In this document: piece after piece, positions 441 through 22,922 of the stretch | How positions within the stretch are numbered: position 1 is the first letter of the stretch | Layout of the letters: each line of letters starts with the position of its first letter | Assembly: GCA_022841645.1 (NCBI GenBank) | Contig: JALHRC010000013.1 | Span: 1 to 38,642 of the forward strand | Direction of reading: 5' to 3' | Length of the DNA: 38,642 nt | Source: Minisyncoccota bacterium | GTDB lineage: Bacteria; Patescibacteriota; Minisyncoccia; Phycocordibacterales; UBA918 | Translations under genes and position numbers: made by a program | The notes under the pieces: generated by a model | Told to the model about the DNA's origin: nothing | What the model saw: only the letters and a program-made list of their open reading frames with translations | Databases searched by the model: none

Positions 441-480
441 CTACCAGGACGAACCTCTACCGAAGGTCCGGCCTCCGGAG

Positions 481-828
481 TTAGTCGAGCTCCCTTCTAA
501 TTGCTTCGATACGATGTTTATCCTCGTTTGCCTGGTCAGCTTTGTGATAAAGCTCGATATGGTAAAACGTTACAGTGTTTTTATGATAAGCATAAATCAG
601 TCGCAGGGCGCGTTCACCTCGCAGGGCGCGACATGCTAAACGTGCCTTTACTACTAGATATGTTTCGGAAGCATGGAGGGTAACAAAATTTGTTCCTATG
701 CCCTCCGGAGTATCTAGTAGGACCTTTTCAATAGTGTCGATATCGTTTTCTAAAGTACGAAACTTTTTAATTAGTTTCTTTAGGTCGCGCTCAAATTCTG
801 GCGTCCTCTTAAAGTGGTCCATAATCAC
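481..828 (-). CDS. RelE/ParE-like toxin (type II TA)
   Basis: 115 aa, FKRTPEFERDLKKLIKKF...LRLIYAYHKNTVTFYHIELYHKADQANEDKHRI, a RelE-like pattern. Starts at GTG 828 or ATG 822 and overlaps the 3' end of the upstream antitoxin ORF. Confidence 0.7.
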   Translation of the reverse strand: MIMDHFKRTPEFERDLKKLIKKFRTLENDIDTIEKVLLDTPEGIGTNFVTLHASETYLVVKARLACRALRGERALRLIYAYHKNTVTFYHIELYHKADQANEDKHRIEAIRRELD

Positions 829-1540
829 GGACAGACGTCTCGCTAGGACGGTAGAATACGTGCTCGTAATTTAGGACATCTTTCTCTCCAGCCACTCGCC
901 ACGGGGTATCGATGTGCGACAGGTCAGATAACTCTTTCCCCGAGAGGTGCGCCAAGCGCGCTAGCTCATCATCAATATGCTTGAGCTCCTGTCCGGTAAG
1001 AAGAGAGACGTCTGGCTCCGTAGTCGCCATATAGCGCGTTTGGTCATGGCCAAAGTACTTACTTTTCACTTCAACCACCTCGCCAGTCAGCTTCATATCA
1101 CGAATAACTTTTGCAAACGATACCGGGGTCGGCCCAAACTTATTTTTAATGTAGGTAGCACCAATAAGCTGTCGTTCGTACTTCTCGTAAAAATCAAAGT
1201 CAATGAAGTAGAGCAATTTATACAAGGCCATTTGCCCAATGTTTGGTCGATTTCCTACTTTGCTAAGGATATAAAGGAATGTCTGGCGAAACTTCAGGGC
1301 GTTTTCCTTAGGAATTTCGCGTATTTCTACTGGTTCCTTTACTTCGGGGATAGTGCTGTGGCGGTCTAGGGCGGCGGCCTCCGTTTGAAGGGCACGGGAG
1401 AGCAGCGCCCGCTCTTGCGGAGTTGGCTTACGCTCGCCTTTTTCAAGCGCTACATAGGTTGGCCGTGATACGCCAAGGGCCTGTGCTACCTCAGTCTGCG
1501 ACAACCCGAGCGCCTCACGCTTATCTTGTATCCAAGTCAT
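809..1540 (-). CDS. XRE-type HTH plus Panacea (DUF4065/SocA-like) antitoxin
   Basis: N-term HTH MTWIQDKREALGLSQTEVAQALGVSRPTYVALEKGERKPT. C-term Panacea-like LYKLLYFIDFDFYEKYERQLIGATYIKNKFGPTPVSFAKVIRDM. The track start at 1558 is a TTG; ATG 1540 is preferred. Confidence 0.75.
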   Translation of the reverse strand: MTWIQDKREALGLSQTEVAQALGVSRPTYVALEKGERKPTPQERALLSRALQTEAAALDRHSTIPEVKEPVEIREIPKENALKFRQTFLYILSKVGNRPNIGQMALYKLLYFIDFDFYEKYERQLIGATYIKNKFGPTPVSFAKVIRDMKLTGEVVEVKSKYFGHDQTRYMATTEPDVSLLTGQELKHIDDELARLAHLSGKELSDLSHIDTPWRVAGEKDVLNYEHVFYRPSETSVRDYGPL

Positions 1541-1659
1541 AAAGCCATTATGGCACAAAATTACTACTATTACAATATTACTGTGTATAATGTAAAGATG
1601 TAATATCTGCCTATCAGCCGCTCCACGTTGATCATTACTACTTAATCTAAATTGAACCT

Positions 1660-1791
1660 ATGGCCCAACGAAAGACGAGTGCGAGTGCTGGTCGTGCTGC
1701 TAGTCGCGTACTGCGCAACGGTCGTACCAGCAAAGACTCAAAGAAGGCTGCCGGCAGTGCCCTATCCCAGCGGGCACCCAAGAGAAGGTAA
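1660..1791 (+). CDS. Small basic protein (43 aa), conserved-looking
   Basis: Own translation: MAQRKTSASAGRAASRVLRNGRTSKDSKKAAGSALSQRAPKRR*. Divergent from the TA operon and followed directly by a hairpin. Below the 60-aa cutoff of the supplied track. Confidence 0.55.
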   Translation: MAQRKTSASAGRAASRVLRNGRTSKDSKKAAGSALSQRAPKRR

Positions 1792-1796
1792 CAGAC

Positions 1797-1828
1797 ACAA
1801 AACAACCACCGCGAGGTGGTTGTTTTGT
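1797..1828. terminator. Bidirectional A/T-flanked terminator hairpin
   Basis: ACAAAACAACCACC-GCGA-GGTGGTTGTTTTGT, 14-bp perfect stem, between convergent ORFs 1660-1791(+) and 1843-2367(-). Confidence 0.85.
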
Positions 1829-1842
1829 AACGCAGTCATAGT

Positions 1843-2367
1843 CTATCGACTGTGGCGCGGTGCATGATTGATTGTGTGTACCAAAAGTTGTAATGCTTCC
1901 TCCACATCTTCAACCGTGCATGCTCGAGCGTTTCGTTGTCTAAGATGTACCGAATTTCGCATTCTCGCTAGTTCAGTAATTCGCGCTGCTGTTTGAGGAG
2001 TAAGCACAGTACCCTCCATCATTTGAACAAGTTCTCTGAGATTAATTTCTGATTCTGTTTTAGCAACTTTACATTCTACTGCCATAATGACAGGGCCTTC
2101 CGTATTACGACTTTTGTATGCACTATTGATAGTGATCTTATCTTTGTATTCCACCTTGGTTATCTCATCACCACGTAACTCACGAATATAATGCAAAATC
2201 GCCTCAATAATTGAGACGATGTACAAAATGATTACCCGATAGGTTTCTGTGCGGTAGGAATCGTTTCGTTGCTCATTCTTTGATTCTTCGTAAAGAGCGT
2301 AGATATAGCCAATTGCGTCGTCAATTCGTTGTCGCAAGATGGTGTCTCTAACGAAATCCAGCTCCAT
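1843..2367 (-). CDS. HEPN-like domain protein (putative RNase/toxin)
   Basis: 174-aa predicted helical protein with C-terminal TELARMRNSVHLRQ, compatible with a HEPN R-x(4-6)-H motif. Sits 1 nt downstream of a 56-aa ORF. Confidence 0.45.
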   Translation of the reverse strand: MELDFVRDTILRQRIDDAIGYIYALYEESKNEQRNDSYRTETYRVIILYIVSIIEAILHYIRELRGDEITKVEYKDKITINSAYKSRNTEGPVIMAVECKVAKTESEINLRELVQMMEGTVLTPQTAARITELARMRNSVHLRQRNARACTVEDVEEALQLLVHTINHAPRHSR

Positions 2368-2368
2368 G

Positions 2369-2539
2369 TTAGCGACCGGCCTTGGTCATTTTGAGCAACT
2401 TTGATAGTGAAGGGAGACCTTCATTTCGGAGTACTGTGTGTAGGTGGGCATCCGAACGATAACCAAGGTCAACCCCATATTTCTTTTCGATTGTTTTTAC
2501 GAGTGTATCCCCTCGTTTTTGGCGAAGAAGCTTTGACAT
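2369..2539 (-). CDS. Small ORF (56 aa), putative partner of the HEPN-like gene
   Basis: Own translation: MSKLLRQKRGDTLVKTIEKKYGVDLGYRSDAHLHTVLRNEGLPSLSKLLKMTKAGR*. Its TAA is separated by 1 nt from the ATG of the HEPN-like gene. Below the track cutoff. Confidence 0.6.
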   Translation of the reverse strand: MSKLLRQKRGDTLVKTIEKKYGVDLGYRSDAHLHTVLRNEGLPSLSKLLKMTKAGR

Positions 2540-2600
2540 GTAGTAATAGTACCAGTATGGATATTTGAGTCAACAGTACTGTAGTCAACTAATGCATCGA

Positions 2601-2631
2601 AACAAAACAACCACCTAGTGGTTGTTTTGTT
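2601..2631. terminator. Terminator hairpin nearly identical to the one at 1797-1828
   Basis: AACAAAACAACCAC-CTA-GTGGTTGTTTTGTT, 14-bp stem, 27 nt past the stop of the minus-strand helicase gene. Confidence 0.85.
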
Positions 2632-2657
2632 GCCATACATAGGTTTGACCTCCGGAG

Positions 2658-4675
2658 TTACAACTTTTTTACAAACACACCTAACACTTTAAACTCATCC
2701 CCCTCCACCAGTTTCCGTGGCTTATGTTCTGGATTACTTGATCGGGGCTTAAGAAGTAAACCATCACTCTCGTAATGTATTTCCTTAAGAGTTGCATCAT
2801 CTCCGATCAGGACTACAGCAACGCCACTTTCTGCAGAGTAATTCTTTCGGCAGAGAATGTAGTCCCCATCTTCAACACCTATTTCATTCATGGAGTCACC
2901 CCTCGTTAGTAGCACAAAATACTTAGCCCCTGGCCGAATCAGTGACGCTGGTACCGGGTAGGTTTCGTGAGCTACCGGATCAGCGTACATCAATTCACCG
3001 CAGCCAACTGAGTCATATAATGGTATATCAATTATCGCCTCGACATACGGTGACCGAATAGGTTCCAACTTATCATTTAGAGGTAAGTTCTCTGTGTATT
3101 TGCCTTCTGCTACCTCTTTAAAATACTTTCTGAGGTTCTCATCAACTATGTAAACATACGTACCGAGCACGCCTCGAGTAAGGAGTGTGTGGTAAATGTT
3201 TTTTATATATAACTCAAGTTCTTTTGGGTCGCTAATGCCGTTTCTACCGTTGATGTCAAAATACTTTGATCGGTCAATTACAAATTTTTTATTTATAGGA
3301 TCAAATGTAAACTCTGGTCCTATAATGACACCGACATAGTTCAGATCGTATCCTTGAACAGTATGAATGCAACCGACTTCATTTACCGCATTTGGAGAGT
3401 TAACCCAGTCGTGAGTGGTCGAATTCCACACAAGTCGCAAGCCATCAATTTCAATATCGTAATCCTGGTTTGACGTACTTTTAGGCTTGGTATGCCAGGG
3501 CCACGCATAGCCTGAAACAACCCGGGCTAGCTTATGACTACTATCTTTTGCTTTTATTGCATCGACCATCTTATGAACATCATCAAAGATTTTGAATTCA
3601 TAATTCTTAAAGGCGGTGACTTCAGGTTTACGATAGCTAAATAGTGCGCCAATAAAATCTATGAATTCATTTCCTGCTCCAATACGCATCTGGGTGGTGA
3701 GTTCAAACTCTCGTGCTTTAAGGCGTTCAAAATCTACTGGCCGGATATCAGCCGGTTTAATACTTTGATTTTCGTCATAAAGAAAGATTTGATACGTCGA
3801 AGACTGCATTATCCAATCCAACTGCGTTGCTTCTTTAGATAAAGCAAGTTGTCGATTTACATTGTCATAGCTTCCATATCCCATAATACCTTTGCGACGT
3901 TGTAGCCTATGAGACTCATCTACAATGAGTAGATCATACTTGGTTTTCACGACATCGTTAGGGCCAATGACCATGCTCGACTTTAAACCCTTAACTTTAG
4001 CAAACACGCGACTCAGTGTTCCTCGCAAGGAACTCATAGGCACAACAAAACCAATTTTCAAATGTCTAGTTTCTTGCTGATCTAGCAGGTACTTGCAAAG
4101 ATACGTACCCAAAATTGTTTTTCCTGTTCCAGGTTTGCCATGAACAATGAACGTTTGTGAAAGATTACGCGAGATTTCTTCTGCAATCGATTTTGCCACT
4201 AGTAACTGGTCATCAGTCAGCGATTTATACGGGGAATACTTAAATAAATCGGTGTTCTTAATAAAATCTAACGAGTGCTTCACCAGCCCGTTTTTGCGAA
4301 GCGTCTCCCATAAAACTTCAAATTTTGTCTGATATAGAACCTTATTGTAGTAATTATGATTTTTAAGACCACCATTACTATTCTGCAAAACGTACTTACC
4401 ATCTGCAGCGACGTACTGTATTAACCACGCTTCAATATCAAAAGCTGCTGAAAGGTTAAATTCTTCATCAGAAATTACATGAATTTGCTTTAACTTCCTA
4501 CGCTCAGGGTTTTCAAAGTGCTGTTTACTTCTTGATCCAACATTGATCGACTGACCGATGTATGCCCCCGTGAGTTTTCAAGCACGTACACCACCGGCCA
4601 GTTACGGCCAAATTTATACGCCTTGATACGGTCAAGACTATCTTTAGCGAAAGGAAAGACTTGAATCTCTGACAT
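2658..4675 (-). pseudogene. GIY-YIG nuclease - Schlafen group 3 (DUF2075) SF1 helicase/ATPase - S24 (LexA-like) peptidase fusion, interrupted by one frameshift
   Basis: Track ORFs 4490-4675 and 2658-4388 join if one G is added to the C5/G5 tract at 4565-4569: ...RNWPVVYVLENSRG|AYIGQSINVGSRSKQHFENPERRKLKQIHVISDEEFNLSAAFDIEAWLIQYVAADGKYVLQNSNGG... Walker A HGKPGTGKT, Walker B LLIVDESH, C-term RGDSMNEIGVEDGDYILCRK...DATLKEI (S24 Ser/Lys dyad pattern). May be a sequencing indel rather than a true pseudogene. Confidence 0.8.
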
Positions 4676-4677
4676 AC

Positions 4678-5025
4678 TTATAGTTCGTTGTATTTACTGG
4701 AGACGCCCTTAGCTTTTTCCACTGGATATTTTGCTTCGTTTTTGTCCATCTTTTTATCAAGCGCAGTAACAAGGTCGATGTTGTAATGGTTAGCGAGCAT
4801 AATGACCCAATATAGAACATCTGCCAGCTCGTCAGCCATCTCGGACTCCTTGCCAGGCTTCATTTTATTGTCCTTTGTCCACTGGAACAGCTCGAGTACC
4901 TCGGCCGCTTCTAACTGAAGAGAAATAGCCAAATTTTTAGGGTCGTGAAATTGTGACCAATCCCGGGCCTTGCAGAAAGCACTGATTCTTTGCACCAGGG
5001 CTTTATACCTATCATTATCTTCCAT
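4678..5025 (-). CDS. MazG-like nucleotide pyrophosphohydrolase
   Basis: 115 aa: FCKARDWSQFHDPKNLAISLQLEAAEVLELFQW...EMADELADVLYWVIMLANHYNIDLVTALDKKMDKNEAKYPVEKAKG. Its stop lies 2 nt before the ATG of the GIY-YIG ORF. Confidence 0.9.
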   Translation of the reverse strand: MEDNDRYKALVQRISAFCKARDWSQFHDPKNLAISLQLEAAEVLELFQWTKDNKMKPGKESEMADELADVLYWVIMLANHYNIDLVTALDKKMDKNEAKYPVEKAKGVSSKYNEL

Positions 5026-5079
5026 GTCAAAACAGTAGCATTTTAAGGCTTTTTTACAACACAGTAGGAAGGCGGAGCA

Positions 5080-5253
5080 CTACCCCTTCCAATCCTCAAT
5101 CACCACCTTACTTCCCTTCTGCACCACGCGCACCTTTTGTCGTTCCCTCCAGCCCAGGGCGCGGATAATATCGATAGGGATAATAACGCCCATACTGCGT
5201 CCGGCCCCGCTGCGGGTTAATTTGCGAACGTTGCTGTCGGAGCGCGGTTTCAT
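5080..5253 (-). CDS. AbrB/SpoVT (MazE-type) swapped-hairpin DNA-binding protein
   Basis: Own translation: MKPRSDSNVRKLTRSGAGRSMGVIIPIDIIRALGWRERQKVRVVQKGSKVVIEDWKG*, AbrB-like (GVIIPIDIIRALGW...VRVV...VVIEDW). The track's 5108-5290 ORF is the wrong frame. Confidence 0.7.
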   Translation of the reverse strand: MKPRSDSNVRKLTRSGAGRSMGVIIPIDIIRALGWRERQKVRVVQKGSKVVIEDWKG

Positions 5254-13895: not shown

Positions 13896-16800
13896 CTAGA
13901 TTTCGCCTCCGCCACCCCCTCCGCCGCCGGTCGCCGTGTGATAGACTCGTACCTCCAGGGCATCAAGGCGAACGGTATTTGAAGACGGCTGAGCGGTCAC
14001 ACGTACCCGGAAGTTGGTGTCGTTTAGTTCTGCTGGCGTCCAAGCTCGGCCCCAGGTAGTGGTTTGTCCACCCACCACATATACAACGTCTGAGCCACTA
14101 AGTGTCGGTGTGACTTCGGTTGTAGTAGTAGAGATACCACCGTCCCAGGAGAGAGCAATTTCAATAGCTCCTGCCGCCGTACTGCCGCTGCCGTCAACTT
14201 TCACAATAATTCCTTGAACAGTATTCCCGCCCGGTAGTTCAAAACCAAAACCACCGTAGGTCTGGCGCAGTCCCGCGCTACCAGCGGTGGCGTAGCTGCC
14301 GTCACTTTGGTAAGCATTACCAGGATTCGTCCATTCGTTATGTGGAGAACCATTATTACTCGGACGGAAGAAATCTGGATCAGGTGCAATATTTGCACCG
14401 TCGGCCACCTGTCCGATTTCCTGCCCGACTGGAATACCGGTGCCCGATGAACCACCGCTGCGTACACCGGCACCAGTCGGTGCATCGCCACCAATGGGGG
14501 CACGGAATTCTACTAAAATCGGTCCTCGTGCGTGCTGTAGTTCACTCACCGATCCATTTACCACGAGCGACATGAGGGACGTCACACCCACGGCGTCGAC
14601 ATCGATCCCTACAAGATCGATACGTAACGAGTCATTATTTTTAATTGCCACTGTGTTACCAATCAAAATATAGTTTGTACTGGTGGTACCCGTGGTCATG
14701 GTGGTACTGAATGCAATAGTGCCGGTTTGATTAGTGATCGTTAGAATTCCGGTTCCCATCACCGCCACATCACCGCCGTCAAAGGCACCATCGTTATTGG
14801 TGTCTCGGTAGAGGCGAAGACTGGTGAGCTTGGTGGTATCAATGCCATTTACTCCAGCCAGCGAAAACGTGAGTGTATTTACACTTACCGTTTCGGTGGC
14901 AGCAGTGAGTGAAAAGGCATACAAAGGGATATCAGTTTTGTTATTGAATGAAAACTCATTCTCAGCCTGACCAGCACTATGTTCACCGATAGTAAGTGAC
15001 CCAACGTCTATATTGATAGTCGCTTCACCGACTGCGTAGAACTGGGTCGTCGTGCTTTGATTATGATATTCAGTAAGAAACCAAGCTGTTGATAACGTCG
15101 TGGTCGAGATGCGAAGGCTATCCATTCGCCCATTAAGCGGCCACGGATTACCGTCGATATTAGTTGAACGACGACCAATGCCAAGGTTGACGTCGGTCAG
15201 CATAGTGTTTGATCCAAGGTTGTTACTGATAGAACTGGTGCTCATCCGTTGACCGTTAAGATAAACGTTCATACCAGCCGATTCGCCGTTGCCATTATAC
15301 GTCCAGGCTACGTGGTGCCAACTCCCCACACTAACACTTCCTCCCGACACTTCAGCTTGTACACCAACACCGAAGGTACTGATACCACGAAAACGAAGAG
15401 CTCCAGAAGTATTTGTGTAGAATTCCCATCCTCGATATGGGGCAGTAGTTTGAAGTTTTGAGACAAAGATCTGAGTATCGGGGGCCAGAGTATCGAGATT
15501 AATCCATAAAGATCCACTAAACGGCTGAGTACTTTCAAAGTCGTACGAGCTATCCGGAGCAGTAAGATAATCGTTATTACTTCCGTCAAGGTCAACCGCT
15601 CGACCAACTTTGCCGGTAACGGTGTTGGAACTACTAACTGAAAAACCAGTAGCGTGAGCTCCGCCAGGTGTTGCATCTCGGAAAGCCCCTTGAGTAGTGG
15701 TGGCTTCTTGACTCAAGTGATGAACGCTATAGAAAGTGCCAGACCAAACATTTTGTGAACCGTAGGGACTGGTGGAGGCATAGCCTGTTGCGGTGGGATT
15801 AGCAAAGTAAAGGTAGAAGGTTGAGGTAGAAGTAATCGATAAACGATTAGCTAAGAAATGGAGCTCTCCAGTGCTGCTCGCGGTATCAATATTCACCACC
15901 TCAAGCGGGGTTTCGGTTTCTCCGTCGCTTTGGGTGACTCGGATGTCATCGCCGTCAGACTGAACATTGGACCAGAACTCGCTAGGCAGATCGGCGAGAT
16001 TGACGTAGACAGGAAAGTTGGTAAGAGGACCTGTCGATCCGCCAACCTTACTGGGTACAATATCAAGGGGGAGACGCCCAGAAAAATCGTTATCATACCA
16101 ACTAGGTTCTACGTAGGTTTCAAGTGTCGGTGTCGCGTAGAACGTGTCTGGATCATTTTGGTTATTGAATTCGGTAAGGAGCCAACCTGCATCACGAGCA
16201 ACATTCGACAATCGTCCATAGTCAAGGAGGCCGTTGAAGTGTCGTCCTCCACCTTCAGCATCCCGGGCAAAATTGAGTGCATCAATGCGAGAACTGGGCT
16301 TTGTATAAATGTGATTCGCGCTCGTTATACTACTCGACGAGTGAACATAGAGGGTTGCATTAGCCTGTGTTGCCACCATTGTCACGAGTACCCAATCGCC
16401 CAAGGGAAAATGGAGGTTGCTATTCCATATATAAGTATTGAAATCGTTGTTCCAGGTATAGCTTAATTGAGTATCAGAATTGCCATAAAGAGTGATCCCA
16501 GTCGCATTACCACGGGAAAACATGATGCCTGCCCAGTCACCCTGCGTACCGGTAGCGTACAACCACGTTGACCACGTAGACGTGGTGACTGTTTGATCAA
16601 CTGTCGTAGTAATGTATTCGTTCGTACCGTCGAACTGAATGGCCCTTCCCACCTTACCATTCACACGATCGGATGCCTCTAAGTTTTGTGCGGAGCCCGT
16701 TACCGCACGAGTACTGTCTCTAAATTGTGGCGAGCTGCCGCTTGGATCTTCATCAAGATGGAACACACTTACATACCCATTGGTCCACACATTCCGGGAT

Positions 16801-17246
16801 CCGTAGAGACTGGTTGACGCGTAACCAGTGGCCGTCGGATTGCCGAAGTACAGGTAGAACGTAGAAGTCGAGGTAGTGGCAAGACTAGGTGCAAGAAAAT
16901 GCAACTCTCCGGTGCTACTGGCAGTATTGATGTTCACCACTTCAAACGGCGTTTCGGTCTCTCCGTCACTTTGAGTGACTCTTATGTCGTCACCGTCACT
17001 TTGTACATTCGACCAAAATCCACTTGGAAGATCAGCTAGATTGACATACACTGGAAAATTAGTGATCGCACTAGTGGTACCAACCTTACTAGGAACAATT
17101 TCTAGTAACACGCGATATTCATATGACCGATGGAGCCACGCGGCACTCGTTTCAGCCGGCCAGATTAGTCCGCACAGTGCCCCACCACCAATGACTAGTG
17201 GTAGCAGTAAACGGAATACATGAGTGTGGTAGTTCGACAAAGTCAT
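13896..17246 (-). CDS. Large surface protein with two tandem DUF2341 + LamG-like modules
   Basis: 1116 aa; repeated ...VPSKVG...TNFPVYVNLADLPS(G/E)FWSNVQSDGDDIRVTQSDGETETP(F/L)EVVNI(N/D)TASSTGELHFLA... and concanavalin-like segments (FDGTNEYITTTVDQTVTTSTWS; DLDGSNNDYLTAPDSSYDFESTQPFSGSLWINL). Confidence 0.85.
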   Translation of the reverse strand: MTLSNYHTHVFRLLLPLVIGGGALCGLIWPAETSAAWLHRSYEYRVLLEIVPSKVGTTSAITNFPVYVNLADLPSGFWSNVQSDGDDIRVTQSDGETETPFEVVNINTASSTGELHFLAPSLATTSTSTFYLYFGNPTATGYASTSLYGSRNVWTNGYVSVFHLDEDPSGSSPQFRDSTRAVTGSAQNLEASDRVNGKVGRAIQFDGTNEYITTTVDQTVTTSTWSTWLYATGTQGDWAGIMFSRGNATGITLYGNSDTQLSYTWNNDFNTYIWNSNLHFPLGDWVLVTMVATQANATLYVHSSSSITSANHIYTKPSSRIDALNFARDAEGGGRHFNGLLDYGRLSNVARDAGWLLTEFNNQNDPDTFYATPTLETYVEPSWYDNDFSGRLPLDIVPSKVGGSTGPLTNFPVYVNLADLPSEFWSNVQSDGDDIRVTQSDGETETPLEVVNIDTASSTGELHFLANRLSITSTSTFYLYFANPTATGYASTSPYGSQNVWSGTFYSVHHLSQEATTTQGAFRDATPGGAHATGFSVSSSNTVTGKVGRAVDLDGSNNDYLTAPDSSYDFESTQPFSGSLWINLDTLAPDTQIFVSKLQTTAPYRGWEFYTNTSGALRFRGISTFGVGVQAEVSGGSVSVGSWHHVAWTYNGNGESAGMNVYLNGQRMSTSSISNNLGSNTMLTDVNLGIGRRSTNIDGNPWPLNGRMDSLRISTTTLSTAWFLTEYHNQSTTTQFYAVGEATINIDVGSLTIGEHSAGQAENEFSFNNKTDIPLYAFSLTAATETVSVNTLTFSLAGVNGIDTTKLTSLRLYRDTNNDGAFDGGDVAVMGTGILTITNQTGTIAFSTTMTTGTTSTNYILIGNTVAIKNNDSLRIDLVGIDVDAVGVTSLMSLVVNGSVSELQHARGPILVEFRAPIGGDAPTGAGVRSGGSSGTGIPVGQEIGQVADGANIAPDPDFFRPSNNGSPHNEWTNPGNAYQSDGSYATAGSAGLRQTYGGFGFELPGGNTVQGIIVKVDGSGSTAAGAIEIALSWDGGISTTTTEVTPTLSGSDVVYVVGGQTTTWGRAWTPAELNDTNFRVRVTAQPSSNTVRLDALEVRVYHTATGGGGGGGGEI

Positions 17247-17255
17247 ACCTTAATT

Positions 17256-20200
17256 TTATGGTGTATCTAGTAATACCGGGTCGGGCGCGGCCGGCACTCC
17301 TTCCTGTTCTTCTTCGGCAGACAATTCTTCTACTGAAGGAGAACCGTCTTCCATAGCACCGGCCTCTACACTGTTGTCTTCAAAAATAGGCTCTTGAGGA
17401 GGCGGTGCCGAGGCATCATTTTCTGCACTCCCCACTGCCACATCTGGCAACAGTAATTCTGTAGAGGTTGTGCCGGTCGAAGGGGTCTCAGGCGTAGTGG
17501 TTGCTGAGGATTCGTCAGGTATCGGATCATCGACCACGAGAGGCGGCTCTTCCGCCGGTTCTTCTTCGGGCACACTGCTACCCGCCGCTTGCTCTAGCAA
17601 CTTCTGCAGTGCCGCCCCATCAACACAGGTAGTACCCACACAGAGCTTATCGGTTTGTACTTCTTGTGTATCAAGCTTGATGATGCGCAAGACACCATCA
17701 ACAAAACTCTCAGCCAAAGCAATAATTCGGTCGACGAGCCGCTCCCCTTCCTGTGGCTCAGTGGTTGGGGTGGCCATGAGAGCAGCAAGCATATTCGTCG
17801 TTCCCTCGTCGAGATACCGATAATCGTGCTTAACAAACATGACAATCTGCCCAACTTTCACCGAACGATTGTCACCCAGAGTGACCGTCTCACTGTTGGT
17901 GGCTCCTAACTCTGCGAGCGCGCGACGCTTGGCCTCGGCCGCCGCTAGGGCTTCGGCTTCCCGAGCTTGGTCATCCGATGTAGTTGCCTGGAGCGGCACA
18001 CACGGCGTCTCACCCAAAGCACCACCACCACCAAAGTAACACCCATCACTGATACGTGGGTCATTCGGTACAAACGGTGGGTACTCTGGCTCGATCAGGT
18101 TTTCGCCAAACTGGTTGATGAAGATTTCTGAGTAGGCGCGTGATTCATCAAAATCTTCCAAGGCAATACCTACGATCACCCCAGTTGAAGTGGCTTTCAT
18201 GCCAACACCAGGAAGTGAAGAGAGCATAATCTGGTCGCCCTTCTTGATGGGGCCGTTTTCATTTGAGAGACGGATCGGGACGCGTCCAGAAAGCGCAATC
18301 GGGAAGGCGCGTTCGCCAGCGCGGAGGGAGGCATCGTCCGCACCAAGTGTAAGCCCCGGCTGCGTAGAAACCACACCAATCACGTTCTCTCTGGAAGCGG
18401 TGTTAGCGAGTTCGATACTCAGTCCACTCTTGAGTGACACAATTTCTCCTGCCCTTAAAGGCTGATAGGAGAAATACATTTCGGCCAAGTCAGAGTTGCC
18501 GGTGTGGTATTCAGTGGCACTGATACGGCCACTGGTTGACGCGGTACACGAACCGTCGCTGTCGACACACAGGCCCCCGCGCCCGATCTGAAGGCCGGCG
18601 GCATTGGTACCATCACCAATGGTGACCGTGCCCGAGGCGTTTACAAAGAAACGTGAAGTGCCCGCAACCTTAAAGTCGAGGAAACGCGACGTCGTCGAGC
18701 TAAAGCTGCCGGTTGTATTACCGAAGTTCATGAGAAGCCCGGTACCAGCAAATGCCGAGGTGTCTTGGAAAAGTGAAAGCAGGGAGGCGGTCGTAATCGA
18801 GGATGAGTACCCACGAATGGCATTGCCCTGGGTGGTACCACGCGTCTCACCGTAAACACCGGCTGGCTCAAATACGGCGCCCGCGTCACCCTCGGTTGTA
18901 CCGCGGACGCCAAAGGTGCGACCAAAGCCAGAGATGGCGGTGTTTTCACCCAGCGTATTAATGCCGCGCTGTGCCTGCACTTCAAGACCACGGAGCGTAT
19001 TACCATAGCTCGTACTATCGGTAATACGGAAAATGCTCCCTACAATAGTAGTAGTGGCGGTGTTGGTTGTCACCATCGTTAGGCGATTTCCAAATTGCGT
19101 TGCTGCATTGGTAGCATTGGCAAGACCGATGTATTGATCAATACCGACAGTGGACGTACCAGTAATACCTTCACGACGCATAGACAATTGACCTTCTGGG
19201 GTGGTACTACCAAGTCCTAGAAGTCCCGCCTGAGTAAGAGTAAGCAGCTGTGTACCAGTCGACGACGCCACCACAAATGGGTTGGTGCCGGCGGTACCCG
19301 TGACCGCCAAGCTTGCTACCGGGGACGTGGTACCAATTCCCAGCGATCCACTCAAATATGTCGTACCTGACAGTGTCGTGGAAGAGAGCGTCGCGCCGGT
19401 ACCAAAGACACTCGCTCCGGTACCAGTTTCGTCGGAGAGGAGCGCCGCGAGAGCAGCCGAGTTGGTGAACGACGCAGACAGCCCCAGCGACCCTGTCGCC
19501 ACCTGACTCCAAGTATTCCCCGCTCCGCCGATGAGAAGTTGGTTCTGGGTAATGGTGGAGAGGCCGGTGCCGCCACGGGTAGCGGCGAGGGTGCCAGTGG
19601 TGTCGGAGAGGGCGATGGCGAGGGAGGAGGTACTAGCCCACTGCGTGCCCGTAGCAGTAGCACGGAGTATCTGTCCCACCGAGCCGGTACTCGACGAAGC
19701 ATCAACAAGGAGACCGGTGAGGCGGAGGTCGCCCTGGACGGTGAGCTTGTGGGTGGGCGAAGTGGTGCCGATGCCGACCGAGCCCGCGAAGTAATTCTGC
19801 CACTCTTCAACTGTCTGATATACTCCGTAAGTATCATTTGCAGCCGATGAAAAACCGTCGAGGTGCAGTGCGTAGTAATTTGTCGTTGATGATGTGGGAT
19901 TTCCGTAAATTGAGATTCCGTACACATTCTGAGCAGAGGTCACACTAGAGATTCCGGTATTTATTCGACTACCAAAAAGATCGCCGAGCACTGACCCCGC
20001 ATCAAACTCCAGATCAATTCTTTGCCCCATGACTTCAGCAGCAGTACGCTGCTCGCCGGATACTCCTATATTCATACCCAAGATGCTACCGGTGGTTGAG
20101 CCTAGCGCCGTAACCTGAACACCTACACCAACAGCCCCTAAGGCACCATCGATATTTTGTAGAGTCAGCATATTTTGATTGCCAGTAACGGAAAAGAAAA

Positions 20201-22916
20201 AATCTGCCGGCGTCCCCCCATCAATATTCAATTCGCTGTATTGACCATACCCACCGGTGCCTACATCAGCTGCTGTGGCGGTGAAGGCGGATTGTGTGCT
20301 AAAAAAGCGCTGGCTACTATCAAAGCCTGTTCCATCATGGAGACTTAATGCAGTCCCCGCACCACCATCAGCATAGACACTCAGCAACGGATTATTAGAT
20401 GAGGCTTGGACAGTGAGGCGCGAAAGCGGAGTAGTCGTACCGACACCCACATTGCCACTCGTTGCTATCGTCATAGCGACAGTGTTATTAGTCTCAAATT
20501 GCAGTGCGTTGCTATCGTTAGTGCCTAAAATGGCAGACGCCGCATACGAATTACCGCCCTGAGCAAAAAAACCAGCACCGAGGCCAAGGGTAGACGTCGC
20601 TACCGAAAGTGCACTACCACTTACAACCAGCCCAGTGCCAGTAAGGTCAGTCAGCGAGTCGCCCCCCATATTTAAGCGCGTGAGTCCCAGGTTTGATGAG
20701 GTGGCACTGGCGATGGTCGCATCAGCAAAGATAGTTGTCCCAGTAAAAGTCGGTGAGTTTGCGCGCACAAAGCCTCCGCTCGTGCCCATCTCATCAGTCA
20801 GAATAGCGGCGAGCTCGGTCGAGGTGTCTATATCCGTGGTAGATAAAAGACCAAGAGTGGACGTACTCACCCACTGCGTTCCGGTTGCTGTCGCGCGCAG
20901 CATTTGTCCAACAGAACCAGTGGACGATGAAGCGTCAACAAACATTCCGGTGAGGCGTAGGTCACCCTGGACGGTGAGTTTGGCGGTGGGTGAGGTGGTG
21001 CCGATGCCGACATTACCGCGCGCACTGGCGAGGAGCACGTCACCGTTCACGCCACCCCCTCCACCACCAACGCCCCCGTCAACAAAAACATCACCCCCAG
21101 CGTTGGCACTAGTTGCGTTACCACCCACTAAACTAATACTCCCACCAAAATTGCCGTTACCAGCAGTCAGCGAAATACCACCCCCTGATATACCGGCGCC
21201 AGTAAGCAAAAGCGTGCTCGGTGTGGCTGAGGTCGGAAAAATTGTTCCGCCTGTAAAGGCGCCACTTGTGATAGTGACATTGCCACCATTACCACCATAA
21301 AAATCATTGTTATTTCCCCCTCGGCCAGCTGACAAAAAAATGTCGCCGCCGGTGCCTGCCAAGTTAAAACCGCCCGTGGTATTATCGCCGCCTCGACCAG
21401 CAATAATAGTCACCGCACCACCATTGGCAGCTGCTGAAAAGCCACTTGTAGCATCGCCGCCCCGGCCGGCCACCATTTCGACGAGACTTCCTCTACCTGG
21501 GGCTGTTCCATCACCGCCGCGCCCCCCGCGCAACACAAATGCCGGAGTCGCGAGACTGTTGGCAGAAGCATCAGGGGTATGAACACTAAAAAACGCTGCC
21601 GGTGAGGTGCTACCAATACCTAGTCTACCCTCCTGCGTCAGCGTAAGGAGCTGCGTACCGGTCGAAGAGGCCACCACAAATGGATTGGTACCAGCAGTAC
21701 CGGCCACCGCGAGGCTCGCCGCTGGTGAGGTAGTACCAATACCAACATTTCCACTCATATACGTAATACCAGAAAGCGTAGTGGAAGAAAGCGTCGCCCC
21801 TGTACCAAACACAGTTAGGCCGGTGCCAGTTTCATCGGAAAGAAGTGCAGCGAGCTGAGCGGAGTTACTAAAAGAGGCCGAGAGACCGAGTGATCCCGTT
21901 GCAATCTGCGTCCATGTATCTCCTGCTCCGCCGATGAGGAGTTGGTTTTGGGTGATGGTGGAGAGACCAGTACCACCACGGGTGGCAGCGAGGGTGCCAG
22001 TGGTGTCCGAGAGAGCGATGGCAAGGCCAGAGGTAGCAAAGTTCACCCACTGTGAACCGTTGTATGAAAGTATTTGACCAGCGGCGGAGCCACTTAAGGT
22101 GACATCGGTGAGGTCGTCGAGAGCGGCGACGTTAGAGCTACCAAAACCAAGTGACGAAGTGGCCATCCACCGCGTGGTAGTACCGGTAGCTTGAAGCACC
22201 ATGCCACTTGTACCACTGGCATTTGTGCCATCGAACAACGCCCCAGTGATCCGCGTATTACCGGCCACAGTAAATTGGTGTGACGGTGTGGAGGTACCGA
22301 TACCCACGTTGCCATTCCCCAAGATGGTAAACACTTCGGTCACCCCACTAAAGAAGCGTGCAATGGCGCCAGCACCGTCCTGGACGAGCGTTAGGAGCGA
22401 ATTACTTGAAGTGGCTCGCATCGTGTCTGCTTCATCGCTGCGCAAAAACGAGGAAGACGCTACTCCATCAAGCCGTCGCGCCTCAAAGGCCGCCGGCACC
22501 GTGCCCAGCACTTTACGTGGACTCATTTCACCATCCCATACCGGCGAGGTTGTCGTACTACCGATTTCAACCCCGAGATAGAGTTCTTGATTAAAATCTA
22601 CTCCAACAAGTGGGGAGCTCGAACCGAGCATGACTGAGAAAAGTCCGTTAGTCACTTGGACCCGATTCACTCCGGTGAGGCTTTCCGTCCACACTGCCGA
22701 AGTGGTAGCAATCGACGGACTGGTGAGCAGCCAAAAACGCATGTTGTAGGTGCCATCAGGAACCGCCAGTCCGCTACTGTCAGTGAGCTTTCCTTGATAG
22801 TTAATCTCGGGATTAGCTGCTCCCCAAGCGTTACCTGGCACAATTAGTACAGCCATCACAACACACACCAAAAGCGTGTGTGCGAGGAACCTGAGCTGTA
22901 GCAAGCGAGTCAACAT
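17256..22916 (-). CDS. Giant tail-fibre-like surface protein (1886 aa)
   Basis: Signal peptide; repeated (V/L)GIGTTSPxxxLTVxG units; glycine-rich insertion; C-terminal YHTGNSDLAEMYFSYQPLRAGEIVSLKSG...GVVSTQPGL...PIALSGRVPIRLSNENGPIKKGDQIMLSS module; acidic Pro/Glu-rich tail. Confidence 0.85.
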   Translation of the reverse strand: MLTRLLQLRFLAHTLLVCVVMAVLIVPGNAWGAANPEINYQGKLTDSSGLAVPDGTYNMRFWLLTSPSIATTSAVWTESLTGVNRVQVTNGLFSVMLGSSSPLVGVDFNQELYLGVEIGSTTTSPVWDGEMSPRKVLGTVPAAFEARRLDGVASSSFLRSDEADTMRATSSNSLLTLVQDGAGAIARFFSGVTEVFTILGNGNVGIGTSTPSHQFTVAGNTRITGALFDGTNASGTSGMVLQATGTTTRWMATSSLGFGSSNVAALDDLTDVTLSGSAAGQILSYNGSQWVNFATSGLAIALSDTTGTLAATRGGTGLSTITQNQLLIGGAGDTWTQIATGSLGLSASFSNSAQLAALLSDETGTGLTVFGTGATLSSTTLSGITYMSGNVGIGTTSPAASLAVAGTAGTNPFVVASSTGTQLLTLTQEGRLGIGSTSPAAFFSVHTPDASANSLATPAFVLRGGRGGDGTAPGRGSLVEMVAGRGGDATSGFSAAANGGAVTIIAGRGGDNTTGGFNLAGTGGDIFLSAGRGGNNNDFYGGNGGNVTITSGAFTGGTIFPTSATPSTLLLTGAGISGGGISLTAGNGNFGGSISLVGGNATSANAGGDVFVDGGVGGGGGGVNGDVLLASARGNVGIGTTSPTAKLTVQGDLRLTGMFVDASSSTGSVGQMLRATATGTQWVSTSTLGLLSTTDIDTSTELAAILTDEMGTSGGFVRANSPTFTGTTIFADATIASATSSNLGLTRLNMGGDSLTDLTGTGLVVSGSALSVATSTLGLGAGFFAQGGNSYAASAILGTNDSNALQFETNNTVAMTIATSGNVGVGTTTPLSRLTVQASSNNPLLSVYADGGAGTALSLHDGTGFDSSQRFFSTQSAFTATAADVGTGGYGQYSELNIDGGTPADFFFSVTGNQNMLTLQNIDGALGAVGVGVQVTALGSTTGSILGMNIGVSGEQRTAAEVMGQRIDLEFDAGSVLGDLFGSRINTGISSVTSAQNVYGISIYGNPTSSTTNYYALHLDGFSSAANDTYGVYQTVEEWQNYFAGSVGIGTTSPTHKLTVQGDLRLTGLLVDASSSTGSVGQILRATATGTQWASTSSLAIALSDTTGTLAATRGGTGLSTITQNQLLIGGAGNTWSQVATGSLGLSASFTNSAALAALLSDETGTGASVFGTGATLSSTTLSGTTYLSGSLGIGTTSPVASLAVTGTAGTNPFVVASSTGTQLLTLTQAGLLGLGSTTPEGQLSMRREGITGTSTVGIDQYIGLANATNAATQFGNRLTMVTTNTATTTIVGSIFRITDSTSYGNTLRGLEVQAQRGINTLGENTAISGFGRTFGVRGTTEGDAGAVFEPAGVYGETRGTTQGNAIRGYSSSITTASLLSLFQDTSAFAGTGLLMNFGNTTGSFSSTTSRFLDFKVAGTSRFFVNASGTVTIGDGTNAAGLQIGRGGLCVDSDGSCTASTSGRISATEYHTGNSDLAEMYFSYQPLRAGEIVSLKSGLSIELANTASRENVIGVVSTQPGLTLGADDASLRAGERAFPIALSGRVPIRLSNENGPIKKGDQIMLSSLPGVGMKATSTGVIVGIALEDFDESRAYSEIFINQFGENLIEPEYPPFVPNDPRISDGCYFGGGGALGETPCVPLQATTSDDQAREAEALAAAEAKRRALAELGATNSETVTLGDNRSVKVGQIVMFVKHDYRYLDEGTTNMLAALMATPTTEPQEGERLVDRIIALAESFVDGVLRIIKLDTQEVQTDKLCVGTTCVDGAALQKLLEQAAGSSVPEEEPAEEPPLVVDDPIPDESSATTTPETPSTGTTSTELLLPDVAVGSAENDASAPPPQEPIFEDNSVEAGAMEDGSPSVEELSAEEEQEGVPAAPDPVLLDTP
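21030..21545 (-). repeat. Glycine-rich protein repeat region within the giant protein
   Basis: GGRGGDGTAPGRG...AGRGGDATSGFSAAANGGAVTII-AGRGGDNTTGGFNLAGTGGDIFLS-AGRGGNNNDFYGGNGGNVTITS, imperfect units of about 22-24 aa. Coordinates approximate. Confidence 0.75.
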
Positions 22917-22922
22917 ATCTGG

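Follow-up and report, generated by a model that had tools for sequence, protein, structure and literature searches.

Two of the systems that come closest to the locus analysed here have been studied for what sets them off: Nhi is listed among the systems activated by phage SSB, and the nuclease/helicase AbpAB is activated by phage replication proteins or by host DNA damage, reportedly in a manner independent of RecA and LexA (PMC10732053). MazG, in turn, figures as a predicted but unvalidated defence domain in a 2026 study (PMC13092281).

Here we analyse a stretch of 38,642 nucleotides from a Minisyncoccota bacterium (contig JALHRC010000013.1), which is called the window throughout. Its source genome is 1.12 Mb in size and 98% complete, and the genomes of its relatives range from about 0.4 to 1.7 Mb. 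An earlier note on this DNA had proposed that a MazG-like pyrophosphohydrolase, together with a fusion of a GIY-YIG nuclease, an SLFN-g3 helicase and an S24 protease domain, forms a self-contained abortive-infection device gated by the SOS response. Our own tentative reading, which we hold to be slightly short of evenly probable, is that the locus represents an undescribed nuclease-helicase immunity module that in one lineage has come under RecA-triggered self-cleavage, with cleavage turning the enzyme on.

A MazG-like gene precedes an interrupted GIY-YIG/SLFN-g3/S24 gene

The arrangement noticed earlier, two minus-strand genes separated by 2 nt with MazG first, holds, and the second gene is split into two open reading frames (Table 1). 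In the MazG-like protein, the catalytic EXXE (LEAAE) and EXXD (DELAD) motifs are both present, and E39, E42, E66 and D69 are invariant among homologues (alignment A2). Profile match and motifs together place it among the MazG-type NTP pyrophosphohydrolases, and the solved structures nearest to it are the pyrophosphatase 4qgp (2.7e-27) and dCTP pyrophosphatase 1 (5e-26).

Table 1. Features of the locus and its surroundings, in window coordinates
Feature	Position	Strand	Remarks
Putative toxin partner of the Panacea gene, 115 aa	481..828	-	RelE/HigB-like by eye; no Pfam match
HTH + SocA/Panacea antitoxin-like gene	809..1558	-	PF13274 2.8e-15, PF01381 4.3e-13
GIY-YIG / SLFN-g3 helicase / S24 gene	2658..4675	-	Net one-base frameshift; intact homologues L022, L024, L028, L050
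C-terminal LexA/UmuD-type S24 domain	2670..3023	-	PF00717 5.9e-19; alignment of L028 to LexA
S24 Lys (TLKEI)	2778-2795	-	
S24 Ser (GDSM)	2886-2900	-	
S24 scissile Cys-Gly	2997-3002	-	
SLFN-g3 (DUF2075) SF1-type helicase domain	3141..4157	-	PF09848 1e-63
Helicase motif GYDLN	3339-3353	-	
Helicase Walker B (VDESH)	3909-3923	-	
Helicase Walker A (GKPGTGKT)	4116-4139	-	
GIY-YIG nuclease domain	4371..4675	-	VVY, YIG, catalytic Glu (FDIEAW 4425-4442), Asn (LQNSNG 4371-4388)
Frameshift zone	4565..4577	-	Between GIY (VVY, 4586-4594) and YIG (4548-4562) halves; net one-base shift about 4565-4570
MazG-like all-alpha NTP pyrophosphohydrolase gene	4678..5025	-	Intact, 115 aa; PF12643 E=2.3e-19

All four of the domains named in the earlier note could be recovered, MazG, SLFN-g3 and S24 directly by Pfam and GIY-YIG by way of a homologue profile. 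The helicase domain matches PF09848 with 216 bits against a cut-off of 24, covering positions 2-354 of the 354-position profile, and its Walker A and B motifs are in place and conserved among homologues. The nuclease domain was not detected in the Pfam scan of the broken window copy; a profile built from homologues finds both of its halves (E=1.6e-24 and 2.9e-11), and PF01541 is matched by 15 of 16 homologue N-termini (best 1.4e-11). In the window the GIY and YIG motifs lie in different frames. In the homologues the motif positions and the catalytic R, E and N are complete: Y26, Y35, G37, R45, E78 and N95 are invariant in all 16. We rejected chance domain matches because the E-values are strong for every domain except GIY-YIG, which required the homologue profiles.

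The PDB matches of the GIY-YIG part, all weak, include T4 endonuclease II, I-TevI and UvrC among the best. In an AlphaFold model computed from 5 sequences (pLDDT 62, with the S24 region below 55, too weak for placing S24 on the helicase), the GIY-YIG part has the expected beta-beta-alpha-beta-alpha order. The helicase part appears closest in fold to SARS-CoV-2 nsp13, RecD2, SLFN11 and Upf1, as judged from the weak model of homologue L028.

The interruption of the second gene leaves one open reading frame (4490-4675) for the first 61 codons with the VVY half and another (2658-4577) for YIG and the remainder, and it lies beside five consecutive G of the minus strand (4565-4569). Intact four-domain homologues were found in the same genus (L022), in two genomes of the same order (L024, L050) and on one contig of the genome_contigs set (L028). 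Because the same-genus and same-order genes read straight through the site, the frameshift is particular to the window copy, by mutation or by assembly, and for the same reason we judged programmed frameshifting to be unlikely. The window copy is thus interrupted, broken or mis-assembled, and may be a pseudogene or inactive. That the copy in the window has decayed or been mis-assembled and has no function, and that only relatives have a working module, we regard as an evenly balanced proposition. The frameshift separates the GIY from the YIG half, the other long genes of the window are open, and a second homologue, L025, is frameshifted at another place and has lost MazG, all of which would fit decay. 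A one-base break beside a G run is, however, a common place for consensus errors; any decay would also have to be very recent, since MazG and the remainder of the 639-codon frame are open.

MazG recurs beside SLFN-g3 helicases

The earlier note had looked to a neighbourhood survey for recurrent MazG linkage, and such linkage was found. In loci picked by similarity to the GIY-YIG/SLFN-g3 family rather than at random, with a small survey outside the phylum, MazG adjoins 14 of the 16 full-length GIY-YIG/SLFN-g3 genes from genomes (the window, L022-L024, L028-L031 and L050-L055, by a MazG profile run over the loci; no MazG lies beside L025 or L056), 9 of 10 SLFN-g3 genes without GIY-YIG from the same phylum, and 4 of 11 full-length hits from plasmid or phage records, among which L065 has MazG downstream, in reversed order. 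Against these adjacencies in genomes stands the rarity of the domain itself, PF12643 scoring above its cut-off in just 10 of 59 related genomes, and we therefore rejected linkage by coincidence. The loci belong to Patescibacteria-like genomes, one Bacteroidales contig, one Erysipelotrichaceae contig (Bacillota) and plasmids of Lactobacillales. Within the phylum, full-length family members are sparse (about 8 of 381 genomes).

Because MazG also adjoins SLFN-g3 helicases that lack GIY-YIG, the pair is a real and widespread module, often amid restriction genes. The idea of one self-contained device survives in part: the fusion and MazG are not a fixed unit, but the pairing of MazG with an SLFN-g3 helicase, with or without GIY-YIG, is widespread.

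The SLFN-g3 helicases of L040, L042-L048, L057 and L058, likewise paired with MazG, differ at the N-terminus, where about 230 aa have no Pfam name (PADLOC PDC-S41).

Defence genes surround many of the loci

The defence-gene setting suspected earlier is evident in many loci. L028 is flanked by a DpnI-like methyl-directed restriction endonuclease and a type II methyltransferase, L024 by RhuM-Fic (PADLOC PDC-S23), L031 and L063 by SauUSI-like type IV restriction endonucleases, L065 and L108 by type I restriction-modification genes, L106 by restriction endonuclease and DUF262 genes, and L107 by a type III CRISPR system. Such recurrent location with defence genes (restriction-modification, type IV restriction, RhuM-Fic, CRISPR and Panacea) is what would be expected of an anti-phage system. 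The GC content of 480-5253 is 43.6%, as against 53% in the remainder of the window, and this deviation suggests acquisition from elsewhere.

These observations bear on the possibility that the pair serves DNA repair or the house-cleaning of nucleotide pools rather than defence, with S24 as its link to the response of the host to DNA damage. Such a role would suit the classification of the MazG relatives DCTPP1 and 4qgp as pyrophosphatases and the occurrence of the GIY-YIG fold in the repair nuclease UvrC. The patchy distribution in the phylum, the deviant GC and the carriage on plasmids argue against it, as do neighbourhoods rich in restriction, CRISPR, RhuM and toxin-antitoxin genes, and we consider a role in repair or house-cleaning very improbable.

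Three further features of the surroundings deserve mention. Downstream of the module, both the window (481-1558, minus strand) and L022 (3217-4386) have an HTH-Panacea antitoxin-like gene accompanied by a small gene for a putative toxin. In L022 the Panacea gene (PF13274, 6.5e-19) follows the pair directly and a similar small open reading frame is found at 4156-4386; two small open reading frames intervene in the window. On an L. plantarum plasmid (L063, 1249-6644), a NUDIX-type pyrophosphohydrolase (PDC-S07), a SauUSI-like type IV enzyme, MazG and GIY-YIG/SLFN-g3 stand in one row, an island in which two nucleotide hydrolases adjoin two nucleases. Finally, the window contains on its minus strand (13896-22922) two very long open reading frames of 1117 and 1888 aa with N-termini resembling secretion signals, which are probable surface proteins.

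The S24 tail retains a candidate self-cleavage site

The serine and lysine positions of the S24 domain are where the earlier note had placed them, and to these our analysis adds a Cys-Gly dipeptide at the scissile position of LexA and UmuD (Table 1). UmuD is cut at a Cys-Gly. When the L028 tail is aligned to E. coli LexA, its Cys-Gly falls on Ala84-Gly85, with Ser and Lys in place. The CG, GDSM and T[LI]K motifs are kept in all six tailed proteins, which fall into two S24 subtypes only 34-42% identical; each thus has the Ser-Lys dyad of a self-cleaving S24 protease and, before the domain, a Cys-Gly in the place of the Ala/Cys-Gly dipeptide at which such proteases are cut. In S24, non-synonymous divergence per site (pN) is 0.09-0.27 and synonymous sites are at or close to saturation, which indicates that the tails are under purifying selection. 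RecA was found in the window's genome, and the tail is a candidate for RecA-stimulated autocleavage.

One may instead suppose that the tail is no longer a protease and has become a module for dimerisation or for docking to RecA filaments, bringing the nuclease-helicase to ssDNA. The S24 domains of UmuD and LexA dimerise and bind RecA filaments, as such a role would require. A pure docking module needs no cleavage site, however, and the retention of Cys-Gly, Ser and Lys in six of six proteins across both subtypes makes this reading quite unlikely in our view.

The tail is carried by the window's protein and by those of L022, L024, L025, L028 and L050, and L023, L029-L031 and L051-L056 lack it; it is confined to the window's order and one genome_contigs contig. 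This contig (L028) is 4.7 kb long, is labelled Cryomorphaceae and is perhaps mis-binned. In the sample of 381 genomes of the phylum, the sole full-length S24-tailed match beyond the window's own genome was G222 (the source of L050), of the same order. Among phages and plasmids no full-length S24-tailed relatives were found, the phage S24 matches being ordinary CI/UmuD-like proteins, and one profile scan of viral contigs gave no match. Since most homologues lack S24, it is not essential for the core function.

Identities of helicase core and tail run in opposite directions in two pairs of proteins: 71% for the core versus 40% for the tail between the window and L025, and 55% versus 85% between L024 and L050. 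The trees of S24 and of the helicase conflict, and the simplest account is that tails were exchanged between helicases. The tail thus appears, from these comparisons, to be a lineage-specific add-on that has moved from helicase to helicase. In the tree of S24 domains, the tails of the nuclease-helicases form a group with the LexA-like genes of L089 and L104, and this group sits next to methyltransferase fusions, apart from ordinary UmuD-like genes.

Other S24 proteins of the lineage

The LexA DNA-binding domain PF01726 has no match in the nuclease-helicase protein or in the window's genome, which sets the protein apart from the LexA repressors. The window's genome does encode a UmuD-like S24 protein of about 150 aa (G000:C17, L097), and similar genes occur in L070, L073, L088 and L096. 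In the window's genus the UmuD-like genes sit between CAP/SCP-type and GH18-like genes (identified by eye), an odd and conserved neighbourhood.

Elsewhere in the same order, LexA (PF01726 + PF00717) is fused to the N-terminus of DNA methyltransferases: L067/L103, L069/L100, L077/L101, L082/L102, L098, which is from the window's genus, and L099, where the fusion was assigned from the similarity of the S24 part and the length of the open reading frame alone. The methyltransferases are of N6/N4, Eco57I-like N6 and C5 types, and in L067 and L069 the fusion adjoins a restriction endonuclease-like open reading frame of about 190 aa. It is possible that these fusions represent damage-controlled restriction-modification. 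At L089 (443-2155), a LexA-like gene whose S24 domain has a Cys-Gly scissile site immediately precedes the gene of a CBASS-type oligonucleotide cyclase. Taken together, the exchanged helicase tails, the N-terminal halves of the methyltransferases and the regulator beside CBASS raise the thought that in this lineage the LexA/UmuD self-cleaving domain is a transferable damage sensor, by which RecA filaments would switch defence enzymes through proteolysis rather than transcription, a generalisation that we put forward as somewhat unlikely.

Proposed mechanism

In the reading we prefer, with cleavage as the activating step, the SLFN-g3 SF1 helicase would travel along phage replication or recombination DNA, and the N-terminal GIY-YIG domain would nick the DNA during this travel. 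MazG would meanwhile strip the canonical or modified nucleotides required for DNA refilling. In the tailed versions, RecA filaments assembled on phage-derived or damaged ssDNA would lead S24 to cut the linker chain at Cys-Gly, and the nuclease-helicase, rid of S24-mediated dimerisation or inhibition, would become active. We infer the defence function, the DNA substrate, the RecA trigger and the direction of the switch (ON, not OFF) from the comparisons above, and an abortive-infection device, as the earlier note had it, is a plausible reading of the same sequences.

The direction of the switch could also be the reverse. As an OFF switch or timer, S24 would leave the intact chain active, and RecA-stimulated cleavage upon host damage would disarm the nuclease and spare the chromosome. 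The conserved scissile site and dyad are compatible with either direction, and homologues with the same GIY-YIG, helicase and MazG but without S24 are common, so the tail is dispensable and could restrain as well as release. Yet these tail-less homologues keep all catalytic residues, and if they are active elsewhere, the tail-less form made by cleavage should be active too. This favours cleavage as activation, and we consider an OFF switch unlikely. Against our preferred reading counts the reported damage activation of AbpAB without RecA or LexA, which implies that damage sensing can do without S24.

If activation by cleavage is correct, the SOS signal would be coupled post-translationally to an immune nuclease in a bacterium in which the LexA DNA-binding domain was not detected. 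MazG would gain a testable role as a defence domain, and MazG with GIY-YIG/SLFN-g3 would constitute a widespread undescribed two-gene module of Patescibacteria-like genomes, Bacteroidota and Bacillota. In the S24-tailed version, the scissile Cys-Gly, the serine and the lysine provide clean mutation sites for deciding between ON and OFF.

Comparison with known systems

A search of openly accessible journal papers found no paper that joins GIY-YIG and DUF2075 and no such system, which is weak evidence of novelty; within that search, the earlier statement that no described system has this exact architecture stands. The Nhi and AbiO helicases (PADLOC PDLC02372 and PDLC02350) match the SF1-type helicase region with E of about 1e-15, and Nhi resembles the protein studied here in having nuclease and helicase in a single chain. 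The match is limited, however, to the helicase region (residues 106-349 of the window piece); for Nhi it covers 171-376 of the 470 profile positions and leaves out the nuclease part. What distinguishes the present module from Nhi and AbiO is the kind of nuclease (GIY-YIG, at the N-terminus), the linked MazG gene and the additional S24 tail. Two PADLOC candidates come close to single parts: PDC-S41 matches the helicase (1.8e-10 for L022, 7.5e-22 for L057, which lacks GIY-YIG) and PDC-S14 the GIY-YIG part (4.1e-9), but both are single-gene candidates whose models include neither the MazG pairing nor the S24 tail.

AbpAB likewise joins a nuclease to a helicase, but the two are separate proteins and belong to other families. 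The GIY-YIG domain is also turned against phage DNA by SNIPE and further defence nucleases of this kind (PMC13190303); SNIPE, however, is a DUF4041-containing membrane protein and is described without mention of a helicase (PMC13190303). With Schlafen group 3 (SLFN11 and its relatives) the protein shares the PF09848 helicase family and, as modelled, the fold, but it carries GIY-YIG at its N-terminus and has no Schlafen-core RNase domain. To LexA and UmuD it is linked by the S24 fold match, the Ser-Lys dyad and the scissile position on LexA Ala84-Gly85; here, in contrast, S24 is C-terminal to a nuclease-helicase rather than part of a repressor or a polymerase accessory protein, and there is no winged-helix domain. 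The module would be a variant of nuclease-helicase immunity that is neither Nhi nor a LexA repressor.
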